Source: Chryseobacterium gleum (GTDB taxonomy: Bacteria > Bacteroidota > Bacteroidia > Flavobacteriales_D > Sanyastnellaceae). Taken from it: a stretch of 64,000 nucleotides of DNA. The notes beneath the pieces were generated by a model that was not told the DNA's origin, made no database searches, and saw only the letters and a list, made by a program, of their open reading frames with translations. The stretch spans positions 248,001 through 312,000 of the forward strand of contig CAMCVP010000001.1 in the NCBI GenBank assembly GCA_945881835.1, read 5' to 3'. The position numbers and the translations under genes are program-made. Below, one piece after another: positions 18,556-64,000 of this stretch; within the stretch, counting starts at the first letter, position 1; every line of letters begins with the position of its first letter.

Positions 18556-19020
18556 TTATGGAAACCAATAAAAGTCTTCTTTTCCGCAGCCCTGAATCAA
18601 TTGGCTCCACGATTCTATCTCGAGTTGCATTTTAACAACAGCCGATTTCTTAAACGGATGTTGCATGCCGGTGAGGTATTGTGAAAGATTAGAGACACCC
18701 GGATTGTGTCCTATGAGAACCACGTCATTCCAATCGTTTGGAAGAAGTTCAATGACTTCTAACAAGTCTGAAAGTTCAGCGTTGTAAATTCTTTTTTCTA
18801 AATGAAGAACAGGCTTATGGCTTTGCGTGGTACTCAGCGCATGCGCGGTAGAGTAGGTGCGCACGGCAGGACTAACGATCCAGTTTGTTGGAAGTTGTCC
18901 GAGGTGATTTCCCAGCGCTAATGCTTGAAGGTTTCCGCGTTCGGTCAGCGGTCTGAAGCTGTCGGGCTGTCCGTAAAGGTCTTCCGCTTCAGCGTGACGA
19001 ATAATGTAAAGTGTCTTCAT
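18556..19020 (-). CDS. sixA: Phosphohistidine phosphatase SixA-like histidine phosphatase
   Basis: MKTLYIIRHAEAEDLYG (RHA motif), VLIGHNPGVSNL. Confidence 0.85.
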   Translation of the reverse strand: MKTLYIIRHAEAEDLYGQPDSFRPLTERGNLQALALGNHLGQLPTNWIVSPAVRTYSTAHALSTTQSHKPVLHLEKRIYNAELSDLLEVIELLPNDWNDVVLIGHNPGVSNLSQYLTGMQHPFKKSAVVKMQLEIESWSQLIQGCGKEDFYWFP

Positions 19021-19784
19021 TAAACGTTGTACTCTCTTCCTTTTACGTTTAGCACTTTCGTGTATTTCTTCAAGCTACGAAGAACAATGAAAATGATGAA
19101 TCCGCTGAACAAAGCGGTGTGCCAAAACGGAGTAAGGATTTCCTTCCAACCGAAATATCCGAAGTGCACGTAGTTCTTCAGTGCGTCGAGCAAAGCGAAG
19201 GAAATGAATACTGCGAAGAATCCGTTGTATTCGCGTTTCAACACGTTACGCAATGAGAATTCTACAGGTGCAGATTTCCATGAAGAGAAACGTGGGAAGA
19301 AAGGCGGAGTTCTTTCGGTCCATTTGATGTAAACGTCTCCGAATTTATTTCGAAGGAAGAATTCTTCTGCGAACATGATGCGTTCGTAGTACAACCAGAA
19401 CAGTAGGCATGAAGTAAGTGTGAACCACCAGTTACCAACGTACATTATGATACCTAACCACATGAAGAAGTTCCCTAAGTAAAGTGGGTGACGAACAATG
19501 CTGTAGATGCCTGTGTGATTTAACACTTCAGCAACCTGACCTTCTTTGGTATTTCTACCTGAAGTACCTTTCGGAGTATAACCGATTGTTATTACGCGAA
19601 TAAGTTGTCCGAAAAATGAAATACCTAAGCACGTCCAAGCCCAAGTTTTATCGAACAACGGATTGTCTGTATCCAATTCAAACCAAATAACCGAAGCGGC
19701 TAAAACATACAATGCCAGTGGAAGAAAGCTGCGCCAACGAAATAGCCAGTTCCCACTTTTGTTCATCTCTTCAATAAGCGCCAT
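19020..19784 (-). CDS. Isoprenylcysteine carboxyl methyltransferase-like (PEMT/ICMT) membrane protein
   Basis: TGIYSIVRHPLYLGNFFMWLGI...EERIMFAEEFFLRNKFGDVYIKW-type motif (YYERIMFAEEFFLRNKFGDVY). Confidence 0.82.
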   Translation of the reverse strand: MALIEEMNKSGNWLFRWRSFLPLALYVLAASVIWFELDTDNPLFDKTWAWTCLGISFFGQLIRVITIGYTPKGTSGRNTKEGQVAEVLNHTGIYSIVRHPLYLGNFFMWLGIIMYVGNWWFTLTSCLLFWLYYERIMFAEEFFLRNKFGDVYIKWTERTPPFFPRFSSWKSAPVEFSLRNVLKREYNGFFAVFISFALLDALKNYVHFGYFGWKEILTPFWHTALFSGFIIFIVLRSLKKYTKVLNVKGREYNV

Positions 19785-19816
19785 AATAGAATTTTATGTC
19801 GCGAAAGTACGAATTA

Positions 19817-19969
19817 ATTCTTCGAATCAATTGCTGCGCAATCAATCCTGCGGATCAATCACTGCGTGATCAATTGCTTCGCAATCAATCCTTCGGATAA
19901 ATCGGAACGATTGATCGCAACGCGATTGATTCGAAGAATTGATCTGAAAGATTGATCACCGAAGGTGAT
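19817..19969. repeat. Micro-hairpin array, CA/TG linker type (11 units), left flank of module A
   Basis: ATTC-TTC-GAAT ca ATTGC-TGC-GCAAT ca ATCC-TGC-GGAT ca ATCAC-TGC-GTGAT ca ATTGC-TTC-GCAAT ca ATCC-TTC-GGAT aa ATCG-GAA-CGAT tg ATCGC-AAC-GCGAT tg ATTC-GAA-GAAT tg ATCT-GAA-AGAT tg ATCACC-GAA-GGTGAT. Confidence 0.95.
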
Positions 19970-19991
19970 TGTTGGAACTGCGTTGTTAAAT

Positions 19992-20079
19992 CATCACGTT
20001 GATGTCATCCGGAACGGTCATCACGAAGTGTCATCCTTCAAGGAAGGTCATCACCAAAGGTGTCATCGGCATTTCGCCG
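19992..20079. repeat. Micro-hairpin array, TCAT linker type (6 units)
   Basis: CATCA-CGT-TGATG tcat CCG-GAA-CGG tcat CAC-GAA-GTG tcat CCTTC-AAG-GAAGG tcat CACC-AAA-GGTG tcat CGGC-ATTTC-GCCG. Confidence 0.95.
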
Positions 20080-20081
20080 TT

Positions 20082-20119
20082 GAATAAACAGCATATAACC
20101 TGCATATAAAAATTGGTGT
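20082..20119 (+). promoter_or_regulatory. 38-bp shared module motif, copy A (regulatory or recombination site, function unknown)
   Basis: GAATAAACAGCATATAACCTGCATATAAAAATTGGTGT; 36/38 identical to the minus-strand copy at 48376-48413. Confidence 0.85.
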
Positions 20120-20150
20120 GTTTTTCAAATTGGCGAAATAGGTTTGCTCT

Positions 20151-21017
20151 ATGGAACAAAACCTAATTAAATCAGAAATAGAATCACGAATATTTACCAT
20201 ACGTGGGAGGCAAGTGATACTCGATAGTGATTTGGCGAATTTTTATGGTTCTGAAACGAAGTATATTAACAGAGCTGTCAGCAGAAATATAGATCGGTTT
20301 CCACCAGATTTCGCATTTCAACTGTCGCTAGATGAGTTTGAAAGTTTGAGGTGCCAATTTGGAACCTCAAAGAATTCAAGAGGAGGGCGCCGTTATATGC
20401 CATTCGTATTCACTGAGCAAGGCGTGTCTATGCTCTCTGCTGTTTTGAACACAAATATTGCAATCAAAATCAGCATTCAAATTATTCGGGCATTTGTCGA
20501 CCTCTGCAAATCAAATGCAGATATAAATCTTTTAAATAGTAGGATTGACCGTCTTGAAGCGAAGCAGGTTATATCAGAATCAAAACTGAATAAAGTTCTA
20601 AATGCCCTTGAAGGAAATAATTCACCAAGCAGTGGCATATTCTTCGACGGACAAATTTTTGACGCATATGTCTTTTCAAGCGAACTTATTTCGAGATCAA
20701 AAAAATCAATTGTGCTTATCGATAATTTTATCGATGAAAACACATTATTGCAACTTTCGAAAAGAAGTCAAAAGGTAAATTGCATTATATACACAGAGAG
20801 AATATCAGAGCAATTAAAACTCGACTTGAAGAAGCACAACGCACAATATCCTCCGATTGAAATTCGAATTTTAAAAAGTTCACACGACAGATTTTTAATT
20901 CTTGATGAGAAAGAACTTTATCACATTGGGGCTTCATTGAAAGATTTAGGAAAGCGATGGTTTGCTTTTTCGAGAATGGATGGGCTTGTTAAAGGAATAC
21001 TTAATCACCTTCGGTGA
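20151..21017 (+). CDS. ORF6N-domain protein with C-terminal PLD-like domain
   Basis: N-term IFTIRGRQVILDSDLANFYGSETKYINRAVSRNIDRFPPDFAFQL...RRYMPFVFTEQGVSMLSAVLN (ORF6N); C-term IVLIDNFIDENTLLQL...KSSHDRFLILDEKELYHIGASLKDLGKRWFAFS (degenerate PLD-like H-x-R-x4-D). Confidence 0.88.
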   Translation: MEQNLIKSEIESRIFTIRGRQVILDSDLANFYGSETKYINRAVSRNIDRFPPDFAFQLSLDEFESLRCQFGTSKNSRGGRRYMPFVFTEQGVSMLSAVLNTNIAIKISIQIIRAFVDLCKSNADINLLNSRIDRLEAKQVISESKLNKVLNALEGNNSPSSGIFFDGQIFDAYVFSSELISRSKKSIVLIDNFIDENTLLQLSKRSQKVNCIIYTERISEQLKLDLKKHNAQYPPIEIRILKSSHDRFLILDEKELYHIGASLKDLGKRWFAFSRMDGLVKGILNHLR

Positions 21018-21164
21018 TCAATTCTTCGAATCAATCTTTCAGATCAAGCCTTCGGATCAAACCTTAGGTGAAATCGGAACGATTGATCACCGAAGGTGAT
21101 TGATTGCTTCGCAATTGATTACGAAGTGATTGATCACCAAAGGTGATTGTGAGGACTCCGTCCT
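21004..21164. repeat. Micro-hairpin array, CA/TG linker type (about 11 units), right flank of module A
   Basis: ATCACC-TTC-GGTGAT ca ATTC-TTC-GAAT ca ATCT-TTC-AGAT ca AGCC-TTC-GGAT ca aACC-TTA-GGT gaa ATCG-GAA-CGAT tg ATCACC-GAA-GGTGAT tg ATTGC-TTC-GCAAT tg ATTAC-GAA-GTGAT tg ATCACC-AAA-GGTGAT tgtg AGGAC-TCC-GTCCT. Confidence 0.95.
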
Positions 21165-47655: not shown

Positions 47656-47955
47656 TTAGAATAGGATGTTTACTTCCAGTCGTGCATTAAACCCACGCTC
47701 AACTATTTTTTGAAGTGTTGAAATTCTTGCTTCTTTGAGGTTGTTCTCAATTTTCGAGATGTAAGATTTCGTGGTTCCAACTTTAATGGCCAGTTCTTCT
47801 TGTGTCATTCCTAAATGTTGCCTTGTTTGCTGAATGAGAACACCTGATTTGAATAACTCATATCCAGCATCAAGGTCATCACGTTTTTTGGTTCCTTTTT
47901 TACCAAAGTGTTTTTCTTTGATTTCACTTAGGGTTTGTGTGTTTTTCGGTTTCAT
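47656..47955 (-). CDS. higA: HTH-type antitoxin (HigA/XRE-like)
   Basis: LIQQTRQHLGMTQEELAIKVGTTKSYISKIENNLKEARISTLQKIVERGF; overlaps the toxin ORF. Confidence 0.85.
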   Translation of the reverse strand: MKPKNTQTLSEIKEKHFGKKGTKKRDDLDAGYELFKSGVLIQQTRQHLGMTQEELAIKVGTTKSYISKIENNLKEARISTLQKIVERGFNARLEVNILF

Positions 47956-48286
47956 AATCTTCCTTTATTCTTAATGCCAATTGTAATTCTTTAATCGGTG
48001 TTTTTTGCGTTTTCTTGTAGAATCCTGTTGTTGCAACAATGAGTTTTTCCTTTTCAAAGAAGCAAAAGATTCGATAGTTGTTCTTTCCTTGCTGAACCCT
48101 TATTTCATACAATCCTTTCGTGTTTTCAAGGTGCTTGAGATAAATCTCTGGTACCATTTCAAGGTCTTCAATGAGTTCTATGGTCCAAATAATTTTCTTT
48201 TGAACCTTTATGCTTTGAGCAACAAGAAAGTCATCGAAATAGGATTTATAGAAAATTACTTTTCTGAATTTTTTACTTTGTTTCAT
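47924..48286 (-). CDS. higB: RelE/HigB-like (Gp49-type) toxin
   Basis: LEDLEMVPEIYLKHLENTKGLYEIRVQQGKNNYRIFCFFEKEKLIVATTGFYKKTQKTPIKELQLALRIKEDY. Confidence 0.88.
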   Translation of the reverse strand: MKQSKKFRKVIFYKSYFDDFLVAQSIKVQKKIIWTIELIEDLEMVPEIYLKHLENTKGLYEIRVQQGKNNYRIFCFFEKEKLIVATTGFYKKTQKTPIKELQLALRIKEDYETEKHTNPK

Positions 48287-48375: not shown

Positions 48376-48413
48376 ACACCAACTTTTATGTGCAGGTTAT
48401 ATGCTGTTTATTC
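48376..48413 (-). promoter_or_regulatory. 38-bp shared module motif, copy B
   Basis: Minus strand GAATAAACAGCATATAACCTGCACATAAAAGTTGGTGT; two mismatches to copy A. Confidence 0.85.
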
Positions 48414-61609: not shown

Positions 61610-64000
61610 TTATTGAATACCCAATTCTTTTTTTGCATCAGGCACTGAAATTCTTTTGCCATTTTTATAAGCTGCAATAAAGGCATCCGGGATACCATTT
61701 GCTCTCACAAAATCGCGTTGCTTGTTAACGTCGGCAATGGTTTGAAATTTACCACTGGTGTATCGAATTTGCCCATTCGCAAGTTTCTCTACATGCAAAT
61801 CTGAATACGTATTTAAAACGGTATTTCGAGTAGGCTTCGCATACACTCCAATTTGAACAGTAAAAAACACACCTTGTGTCGTTTCAATGAGTTTAGCCGA
61901 TACGGCAAGTGGATCAGAATAATAGGTCACATCTACAACCGGAGCCGCGGCAGTTATGTTGGTTTCACCAGTTGAGGAAGCACGCTCTGCCTCGGTCATT
62001 AAGTCGCTGTAGCGAACACGCTCTCTGTTTTTGTAAGCTATAATAAATGCATCGCCGTATCCCATTTGACGAATTTCATTTCGGGCTTGAATGGCTTCCG
62101 TGTATGAACTGAAAAATCCAGTACTATATCGAATGAATCCGTTCGACTGACGTTCGGCATAAACGGGCGCAAATTGATTGAACGTGTTGTTCGCAACAGG
62201 AATGCGAAAAGCACCAACTTGGATAGTGTAAAAAGATCCCTCTGGCAAAGGCAATCCAATTGGAATCGGATTCACATCGCTATACACCGAGGTCGTTTGT
62301 TTTTGATACAAAGTAGATTTAATAATCTCAGGAATGGTTGTGAAAGAACTAGCGTTGTTGGAACTGACGTTGTTGGAACTGACGTTGTTGGAACTGACGT
62401 TGTTGGAACTAGCGTTGTTAGAACTAGCGTTGTTGGAACTGGCGTTGTTGGAACTTGCGTTGTTGGAACTGACGTTGTTGGAACTAGAGTTGTTGGAACT
62501 GACGTTGTTGGAACTTGCGTTGTTGGAACTTGCGTTGTTGGAACTTACGTTGTTGGAACTGACGTTGTTGGAACTTGCGTTGTTAGAGGCAGGAGTTGTT
62601 TTTTCAACTAAAAATTGCAATTCATTTTTTGCATTTCTTTCTAAGGCAAATGCTCTCGCATTTTTTGCGTAACGCTCGAAGAAATCAGCTTCAGTTTTAG
62701 CGGCTGCGCGAAGTGTGCTTGCCTCTTTCATGTATGCAACAGCATTTTCATACGATTTTTTATCTTCGAGAGTAGCAATGCTCGTAGGCACCCCGGTATT
62801 TTTCTTCCAAGCAGATTGAAGATCAATTAAGATATTCGAATTGTGCTCTGCAATGAGTGCAGCATTCTTATCCTCCTCTTGCATTTTCTGGAATGTCAAT
62901 TGGTTGCGTTGTTCCGTCAATTCAGCAATTCGCTCCTGAGAAGTTTCAGCCTTAATTCTTCGGTTTATCGTCTCGATTTCACTGTACAGTTTTTCAATTT
63001 CTGCACGATTGGTGATTTCAACGCTTTCGCTTTTCAACTCATCAAAAATATTTTCATCCTTGTAATTCGACTGTCCTGGACTATTGATAATGCTCGTTTC
63101 CGCTGAAGAAAAAGTTCTGTCAGAACTCACGTTGTTAGAACTGTCGTTGTTGGAACTTGCATTGTTAGAACTGTCGTTGTTGGAACTTGCGTTGTTGGAA
63201 CTGGCGTTGTTAGAATTGGCGTTGTTAGAACTTACGTTGTTGGAACTTACGTTGTTAGAACTGTCGTTGTTGGAACTTGCGTTGTTAGAACTTACGTTGT
63301 TAGAACTTACGTTGTTAGAACTGGCGTTGTTAGAACTTACGTTGTTGGAACTTGCGTTGTTAGAACTGTCGTTGTTGGAACTGGCGTTGTTCGCTGCAGT
63401 TGGATTTTCGTAATGTGAATTCTCCAATGCTGTTGAAACACGATTTTTCGATTCGGTGATTTCAGTTTTTAGAGATTCAACATCAACAGTGTTGGTTAGA
63501 TTTTTAAATTCAGGTTTGATCTCAGGTTGTTTCTCGTTTTCTAATTCTTGAAGCAGTTTCAATAACGTTGAGGCCTCTTGCAGAGCCAACTCGCGGATCC
63601 GAAGATTTTCTTTTTCAGCTTCAATATCTTCCTGAGCAGATGCATACTCAGCTTCGAGCGCATTCAATTCGTTCGCCAAACGTGCGATATCTTTTTTCTT
63701 TTTTGTGACAGACATTTGCTTATTCAGAGAATTCGCCTGCTGCTCAATTTCTTCAAGTTCTCTCGTCTTTGTATTAATTCTGAGTTGAGCATCGTCGCGT
63801 TGAGCTTTAGCTTCATTTACTTTCGCTTTAGCATCTTGCGATTTCCAAGATACTTCCTTTTCAGTTGCAAGTCCTAGTTCGCTTTTCGGGTTTTTAGCAA
63901 CATAATCATTAACTAAATAGGCAGCCATCGGCGTGTCTTTTTCCGCGAGAGATTCCTTGATTTGCTTATTTGTAGCTTGAACATTGCTAAGCTGTTCGCG
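61610..64000 (-). CDS. Coiled-coil/Asn-Ser-repeat protein with two C-terminal SPOR-like domains (5' end outside window)
   Basis: C-term FYTIQVGAFRIPVAN...RYSTGFFSSYTEA and FFTVQIGVYAKPTRN...RYTSGKFQT (SPOR-like); two NNxSS pentapeptide blocks; frame stays open to base 64000. Confidence 0.85.
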   Translation of the reverse strand, partial: REQLSNVQATNKQIKESLAEKDTPMAAYLVNDYVAKNPKSELGLATEKEVSWKSQDAKAKVNEAKAQRDDAQLRINTKTRELEEIEQQANSLNKQMSVTKKKKDIARLANELNALEAEYASAQEDIEAEKENLRIRELALQEASTLLKLLQELENEKQPEIKPEFKNLTNTVDVESLKTEITESKNRVSTALENSHYENPTAANNASSNNDSSNNASSNNVSSNNASSNNVSSNNVSSNNASSNNDSSNNVSSNNVSSNNANSNNASSNNASSNNDSSNNASSNNDSSNNVSSDRTFSSAETSIINSPGQSNYKDENIFDELKSESVEITNRAEIEKLYSEIETINRRIKAETSQERIAELTEQRNQLTFQKMQEEDKNAALIAEHNSNILIDLQSAWKKNTGVPTSIATLEDKKSYENAVAYMKEASTLRAAAKTEADFFERYAKNARAFALERNAKNELQFLVEKTTPASNNASSNNVSSNNVSSNNASSNNASSNNVSSNNSSSNNVSSNNASSNNASSNNASSNNASSNNVSSNNVSSNNVSSNNASSFTTIPEIIKSTLYQKQTTSVYSDVNPIPIGLPLPEGSFYTIQVGAFRIPVANNTFNQFAPVYAERQSNGFIRYSTGFFSSYTEAIQARNEIRQMGYGDAFIIAYKNRERVRYSDLMTEAERASSTGETNITAAAPVVDVTYYSDPLAVSAKLIETTQGVFFTVQIGVYAKPTRNTVLNTYSDLHVEKLANGQIRYTSGKFQTIADVNKQRDFVRANGIPDAFIAAYKNGKRISVPDAKKELGIQ
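62345..62590 (-). repeat. 15-bp tandem coding repeat (NNxSS), block 2
   Basis: 16 consecutive pentapeptides NN(A/V/S)SS; + strand reads repeated GTTGTTGGAACTNNC. Confidence 0.95.
63112..63392 (-). repeat. 15-bp tandem coding repeat (NNxSS), block 1
   Basis: 18 consecutive pentapeptides NN(A/V/D)SS, one NNANS variant. Confidence 0.95.

Follow-up and report, generated by a model that had tools for sequence, protein, structure and literature searches.

The window, by which we mean the whole stretch of 64,000 nucleotides that was analysed, comes from a draft genome of 2.53 Mb in 38 contigs, which represents a genus of the Flavobacteriales that is probably freshwater or lake-dwelling, the habitat being judged from sample names. 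It contains a block in which arrays of very short perfect hairpins lie on both sides of a gene for an ORF6N-domain protein, with a conserved leader in front of the gene. The features discussed below are the following.

19814-21162, no strand assigned: the whole block (arrays, leader, ORF6N gene and array 3), missing at the orthologous site of sister species G001
19817-19969, no strand assigned: array 1, TTGA/TCAA family, six leftward TCAA-linked units and then five rightward TTGA-linked units, 11 perfect hairpins
19885-19914, plus strand: asymmetric core of the TTGA array, TCAA-TCC-TTC-GGA-TAAA-TCG-GAA-CGA-TTGA, conserved in the genus
19976-19984, no strand assigned: one hairpin, AAC-tgc-GTT, in the gap from array 1 to array 2, assigned to the CCAAY/GTTGG family, from the chain parse
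19992-20079, plus strand: array 2, six TCAT-linked perfect micro-hairpins, from direct reading, parsing, DNA folding and chain score
20082-20119, plus strand: conserved leader GAATAAACAGCATATAACCTGCATATAAAAATTGGTGT with the direct repeat GCATATAA..TGCATATAA, a sequence that precedes many unrelated accessory genes
20139-20146, plus strand: TAGGTTTG, which by sequence fits TAnnTTTG, 4 nt ahead of an ATG
20151-21017, plus strand: cargo gene for an ORF6N-domain protein of 288 aa (Pfam PF10543, E 1.8e-32)
21004-21151, no strand assigned: array 3, TTGA/TCAA family, overlapping the stop codon of the ORF6N gene, core at 21057-21086
48376-48413, minus strand: another copy of the leader, ahead of a Gp49/HigB-like gene on the same strand (47924-48286)

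The hairpins of array 2, read 5' to 3' from 19992 to 20079, are CATCA-cgt-TGATG, CCG-gaa-CGG, CAC-gaa-GTG, CCTTC-aag-GAAGG, CACC-aaa-GGTG and CGGC-atttc-GCCG. Each of the six hairpins has a perfect stem, and TCAT is repeated exactly in each of the five linkers; no TCAT stands in front of unit 1, and the loop of unit 6 is 5 nt long. The hairpins were recovered by DNA folding (z = -3.1, 0/200 shuffles), and when the array was shuffled 2,000 times its regular-chain score of 39 was never reached, which bears out the description of six gapless TCAT-linked hairpins given in an earlier note on this DNA. No linker-regular chain comparable to array 2 was obtained from 20 shuffles of the whole window. 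A search of the whole window against Rfam 15 at the gathering score returned one tRNA only; the arrays match no known structured RNA family, and this identity was rejected.

The earlier note had also placed a first array next to this one, with CA/TG as its linker. The array is real, with 11 perfect hairpins, but scoring with no linker set in advance reads it better as a TCAA/TTGA array in which the stems begin with T and finish with A, and the CA/TG linker was dropped. Mismatch counts made under CA/TG reflect an artefact of phasing and are disregarded here. Array 3, the leader at 20082-20119 and the ORF6N gene between the arrays are additional to what had been described. At the junction of arrays 1 and 2, full CCAAY units are present in a relative (G003, L087).

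Two further observations concern other parts of the window. The segment at 19018-19855, which covers an ICMT-like gene and the first part of array 1, is 95% identical to a segment in G004:C27 (L089), with less similarity in the neighbouring genes, and the interval from ICMT to the gene that follows is about 340 bases longer in G003, G004 and G006; a recent exchange is possible. On the minus strand at 61610-63928, a SPOR-domain protein of 772 aa contains two long regions of SSNNxSSNN repeats. The codons of these regions form hairpins of the type AAC-loop-GTT, with GTTGG/GTTAG as linkers, and resemble an intergenic array family.

Stem vocabulary, loops and polarity

The general unit is a perfect palindrome of 9-19 nt, mostly with a 3-nt loop, joined to the next by a family-specific linker that is usually four bases long. 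A perfect stem was found in 190 of 203 linker-bounded TCAT units and in 255 of 292 linker-bounded TTGA units, as compared to 0 in shuffled sequence for both families. The stems are drawn from few words. TCAT stems comprise 29 words, among them 10 distinct four-bp words over 76 four-bp units, and six four-bp words cover 96 four-bp units of the TTGA family. The first stem pair is constant within a family, being C-G in TCAT, nearly always T-A in TTGA and G-C in GAAT units, while the closing pair is mostly C-G (216/248 in TTGA units). Loops of TTGA units, read on the outward strand, are of the GNA type in 184 of 248 cases and of the TNC type in 6. GNA triloops are described as extraordinarily stable DNA mini-hairpins in literature cited in PMC6479982.

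Where two array halves adjoin, the reverse half preceded the forward half in 25 of 25 cases, such that a TCAA half stands before a TTGA half and an ATGA half before a TCAT half. The TTGA arrays share a common 30-bp core, which with few changes is central in most TTGA arrays of the genus, and have a preferred order of words on either side of it. The suggestion of the earlier note that a rule, and not a particular sequence, is what propagates thus holds for complementarity, which is kept, but not for the rest: a small stem vocabulary is reused, and the TTGA core and word order are conserved. A limited set of stem words, and not a bare rule of complementarity, is what spreads.

Comparison of homologous positions in TTGA and TCAT arrays identified mainly changes confined to the loop, mostly at its centre or first base, and swaps of whole words. 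Compensated changes of a stem pair were seen 15 times, as compared to 6 changes in one arm, and since compensated changes occur, the structure is also under constraint. Conservation thus extends to structure as well as word, and gains and losses involve whole blocks of units; duplicated blocks are visible as TCTGAC-TTGC-TCACC, present twice in L047 and in L282, and as TTC-TCAC-TCT blocks in L267. The few single stem mismatches contain no consistent excess of G-U-type pairs, and pairing at the RNA level was rejected as a reading of them, as they give no consistent signal of G-U tolerance.

An ATGA-linked array is located in frame inside the coding sequence of fdhD in six species (L036 2464-3258; L336-L340). 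These arrays contain 5-10 units, and their lengths differ by multiples of three. Units with CGAAC/GTTCG stems in some orthologues are swapped with CGAGC/GCTCG units in others, and compensated stem changes can be seen between orthologues. The array has been retained in place and in frame in all six species, and this is not a pattern of fast mobility.

Linker families, distribution and turnover

All genomes compared are drafts, and arrays were sampled through searches and sequence stretches, so that the counts given here describe a sample and not a total. A BLAST search with arrays 1 and 2 as query identified about 30 array clusters in the same genome, and seven further arrays, mostly with other linkers, were identified in an unbiased 400-kb sample of it (0 in shuffles). 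TCAT-linked runs are abundant: 27 runs of at least three consecutive linker-bounded TCAT units were counted in the sampled sequence of this genome, in agreement with the expectation of the earlier note that such runs should occur elsewhere in the genome or its relatives. The linker families are discrete, namely TCAT/ATGA, TTGA/TCAA, GAAT/ATTC, CCAAY/ATTGG/ATTCC, CCTC/GAGG, TCT/AGA and CAAA. The contigs C12 and C19 (L042, L047) terminate within TCAT arrays. Because arrays break short-read assemblies, they are probably undercounted.

Many arrays were found in this genome and in seven of eight sampled sister species; in the sister species G007, a 13-unit TCAT query detected no TCAT array. Matches to the same query were confined to this genus in a BLAST search of 399 genomes from 70 genera. 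No hairpin arrays were identified in 549 kb from other genera, just a CTAG simple repeat. A CTAG-based tandem repeat located in another genus of the family (L106, G019) consists of TAG-tca-CTA with GTCGT/GTCAC linkers and mimics a hairpin array, but has a single fixed unit. Viral contigs had no match to the exact array patterns or to the leader, and carriage of either by viruses was ruled out on this basis.

We compared the block to the orthologous site in sister species G001, which is 94% identical to the window up to 19813 and 96% identical from 21163, with 12 bp between the two flanks. Arrays, leader, ORF6N gene and array 3 are therefore all absent from this site. At the same site in G002 and G005, CCTC or GAAT-type arrays are located around a ParDE pair. 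The HigBA, S23 and AbiE sites have different array families in sister species, an array without cargo, or nothing, and near-identical cargo genes are associated with a TCAT array in one species and a CCTC array in another. We asked, as the earlier note had proposed, whether linker identity is locus-specific, and the answer is negative: the linker family at a site can differ, or be missing altogether, from one orthologue to another. Together with the differing families beside the same cargo this rules out that the linker is tied to either locus or cargo. No target-site duplication has been established at the arrays.

The shared leader, its cargo and candidate enzymes

The leader has the general form GAATAAACAGCATATAA-N-cTGCAtATAAAaatTaGtgt and begins at a variable short distance past the last hairpin; in many cases TAnnTTTG and then the start codon follow it. 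The pattern produced 39 matches across the taxonomic order, all of them in this genus, as compared to 0 for a reversed-pattern control, and it was found before ORF6N, KilA-N, YhcG, HigB, Gp49, ParD, MNT, DUF4160 and S23 genes. TAnnTTTG is the -7 promoter element of the Bacteroidota, and we take TAGGTTTG at 20139-20146 to be this element and the leader to be a predicted promoter; an exact TAnnTTTG is present in 21 of 36 leaders. Under strict scoring, an array ends at most 30 nt upstream of 19 of 35 leaders, as compared to 7 of 3,000 random windows. Several of the leaders that fail this strict criterion have visible GAAT/ATTC or TTGA units, and some have no recognisable array. Upstream of the second leader copy in the window (48376-48413) is a GAATGA-rich stretch with no clear hairpin array.

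The genes located between arrays encode ORF6N, KilA-N, the YhcG/DUF1016 nuclease, HigB and Gp49-like toxins with HTH partners, ParDE, MNT/HEPN, AbiEi/AbiEii, Fic, DUF4160 and 23S-IVP four-helix (S23) proteins; arrays also occur between ordinary core genes without cargo. ORF6N genes that are 97-99% identical to that of the window lie behind CCTC arrays in G004 and G003, and the homology stops at the leader boundary. Arrays and cargo genes are modules that can be separated. The idea that ORF6N drives the arrays was rejected, as ORF6N genes are present in other taxa without such arrays. ORF6N loci of distant phyla (L135, L137, L148, L150, L163, L088) have internal perfect palindromes of the form AAGGTCACA-nnn-TGTGACCTT, apparently in the coding region.

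Two Y1_Tnp genes were identified in the genome that contains the window, both of the IS200/IS605 type (NF033573). Both score well below the cut-off of the RAYT model NF047646, and RAYT membership was rejected accordingly. A Y1 transposase was detected in G000, G001, G004 and G006 and not in the array-bearing drafts G002, G003, G005 and G008, one of which is 96% complete. IS200-like genes adjoin arrays at C1:448580 and C14:11314 of the own genome and in G006:C64, and the array-adjoining transposases of L032 2494-2973, L092 3234-3674 and G006:C64 are candidates for a mobilising enzyme. A search of nine genomes for integron integrases gave nothing that passed the TIGR02249 cut-off; only Xer-type matches were obtained, as was also the case in 14 of 14 control genomes. 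The cassettes are scattered across contigs as single insertions and do not form a tandem platform with an attI site.

Interpretation and relation to known elements

The arrays are structured DNA repeats specific to this genus; their linkers define families, they grow in modules and turn over at sites, and they are associated with exchangeable leader-gene cassettes. By analogy, we infer that as DNA they act in the manner of REP/BIME elements, and we lean, with little more than even confidence, towards the reading that they are REP/BIME-like DNA-hairpin elements of this genus that delimit exchangeable leader-gene cassettes. The hairpins would form in single-stranded DNA, with loops largely of the stable GNA type, and the arrays would be junctions where cassettes insert and exchange, through either a hairpin-recognising enzyme acting in trans or recombination between arrays. 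With array and leader in place, a toxin-antitoxin-like or defence-like gene would on arrival find a promoter available at once, preceded by a structured border, and arrays may grow locally by duplication of unit blocks. Because arrays also separate core genes without cargo, the bordering of cassettes may make up just one aspect of what they do, or be a by-product of it. More tentatively, and in our opinion with a clearly lesser chance of being correct, the arrays may belong to a cassette system not described before, in which they would be DNA junction sites and a putative hairpin-recognising recombinase or transposase inserts and swaps the common leader together with one toxin-antitoxin-like or defence-like gene, and in which the linker tetranucleotide sets the specificity.

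The repeats may instead be passive, with slippage duplicating blocks, intrastrand template switching (quasipalindrome correction) keeping the stems perfect and homologous recombination between repeated arrays and leaders shuffling the neighbours, with no dedicated function or enzyme. The block duplications in L047, L282 and L267, the 15 compensated changes against 6 in one arm, the growth and shrinkage of the fdhD arrays by multiples of three bases and the fact that no enzyme tracks the arrays agree with this account. Correction alone would, however, let stems drift, whereas the stems are far better conserved than the loop centres and use few words; it also leaves the 30-bp core, the fixed polarity and the discrete linker families unexplained, and the precise absence of the whole block requires an insertion or excision step. 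We consider passive repeats rather unlikely. Single-strand transposition, in which an IS200/IS605-type (HUH) transposase would use the linker as its guide or target tetranucleotide and insert units or arrays after an existing linker, draws on the knowledge that TnpA(IS200) and TnpA(REP) recognise a hairpin plus a 4-nt foot sequence (PMC6006769, PMC8266576), that REPs with a perfect 5-bp stem exist (PMC8266576), and that IS200-like genes are located next to arrays (C1:448580 and C14:11314 in the own genome; G006:C64). It appears unlikely, given that Y1 transposases went undetected in the array-bearing G002, G003, G005 and G008, that one or two transposase genes would need to serve several linker families, and that polarity and conserved core suggest insertion of the whole element rather than unit by unit.

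A role as transcriptional insulators or terminators, by which arrays folded as RNA would halt read-through and protect accessory genes or make 3' ends more stable, is in line with a mild enrichment in convergent regions (11/38, as compared to 23/118 in tandem and 9/65 in divergent regions), with the ability of hairpin clusters to terminate transcription (PMC8355165) and with the predicted leader promoter directly after the array. Such a role may coexist with another function, but as the explanation of the arrays it is improbable: nine arrays stand between divergent genes and another is part of the coding sequence of fdhD, the stems are short and perfect with DNA-type triloops and no consistent G-U-type excess, the sites differ between sister species without a counterpart, and neither linkers nor vocabulary are explained. 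Integrons also come to mind, since the cassettes hold single toxin-antitoxin-like genes and have sites at their borders that can fold as single strands; the arrays would then be attC-like folded sites at which an integrase inserts cassettes. We regard this as very improbable, since none of nine genomes has an integron integrase above the TIGR02249 cut-off and the cassettes are dispersed singly over the chromosome, each with its own copy of the common promoter.

The favoured comparison with REP/BIME elements is based on short, mostly intergenic palindromes in high copy number, clustered in both orientations, with a foot tetranucleotide; perfect 5-bp REPs are also known (PMC8266576). Atypical secondary structures flank TnpA genes of Bacteroidetes subclass 2.6 (PMC6006769). 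Unlike in REP/BIME elements, the linkers are TCAT, TTGA, GAAT, CCTC and others, and not the foot GTAG/GTGG, long runs of different stems share one linker, several families coexist in a genome, no RAYT was found, and there is a link to cassettes with a common promoter. BOX elements of Streptococcus pneumoniae are likewise modular and intergenic, with variable internal tandem units and stem-loop potential, and are probably mobilised in trans (PMC3049150), but their modules are fixed sequences of tens of bases, whereas the arrays consist of 9-19-nt perfect hairpins from a vocabulary. Integron cassettes are similar in that small movable accessory genes, often toxin-antitoxin genes, lie beside sites that fold as single strands; they differ from the dispersed cassettes described here, which have a common promoter-leader, arrays on both sides and no integron integrase in the nine genomes. 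By analogy, the arrays resemble REP/BIME or BOX elements functionally, but lack the defining features of REPs (GTAG, RAYT) and of integrons (integrase, platform).

The palindromic elements of Rickettsia are palindromic repeats kept in frame within protein genes, each a single long palindrome. The fdhD array resembles them in being in frame but is an array of micro-hairpins. The repetitive hairpin elements (RHE) of sponge mitochondria are similar to the arrays in that they are hairpin elements that proliferate in intergenic DNA (PMC2800124). They are organelle elements, however, and are not known to have linker-defined arrays or cassettes. Full-text searches of the open-access literature returned no description of fixed-linker micro-hairpin arrays or of a shared cassette leader.

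Palindromic repeats in bacteria are usually single fixed sequences. This genus has several coexisting families, each with a fixed linker and with stems taken from a small set of words, and complementarity is kept while the loop centres drift. Linkers turn over quickly at orthologous sites, and the origin and spread of palindromic repeats can therefore be tested in sister species. The common leader behind arrays and before unrelated toxin-antitoxin-like or defence-like genes points to an unrecognised route for the acquisition, expression and exchange of such genes in common freshwater bacteria.
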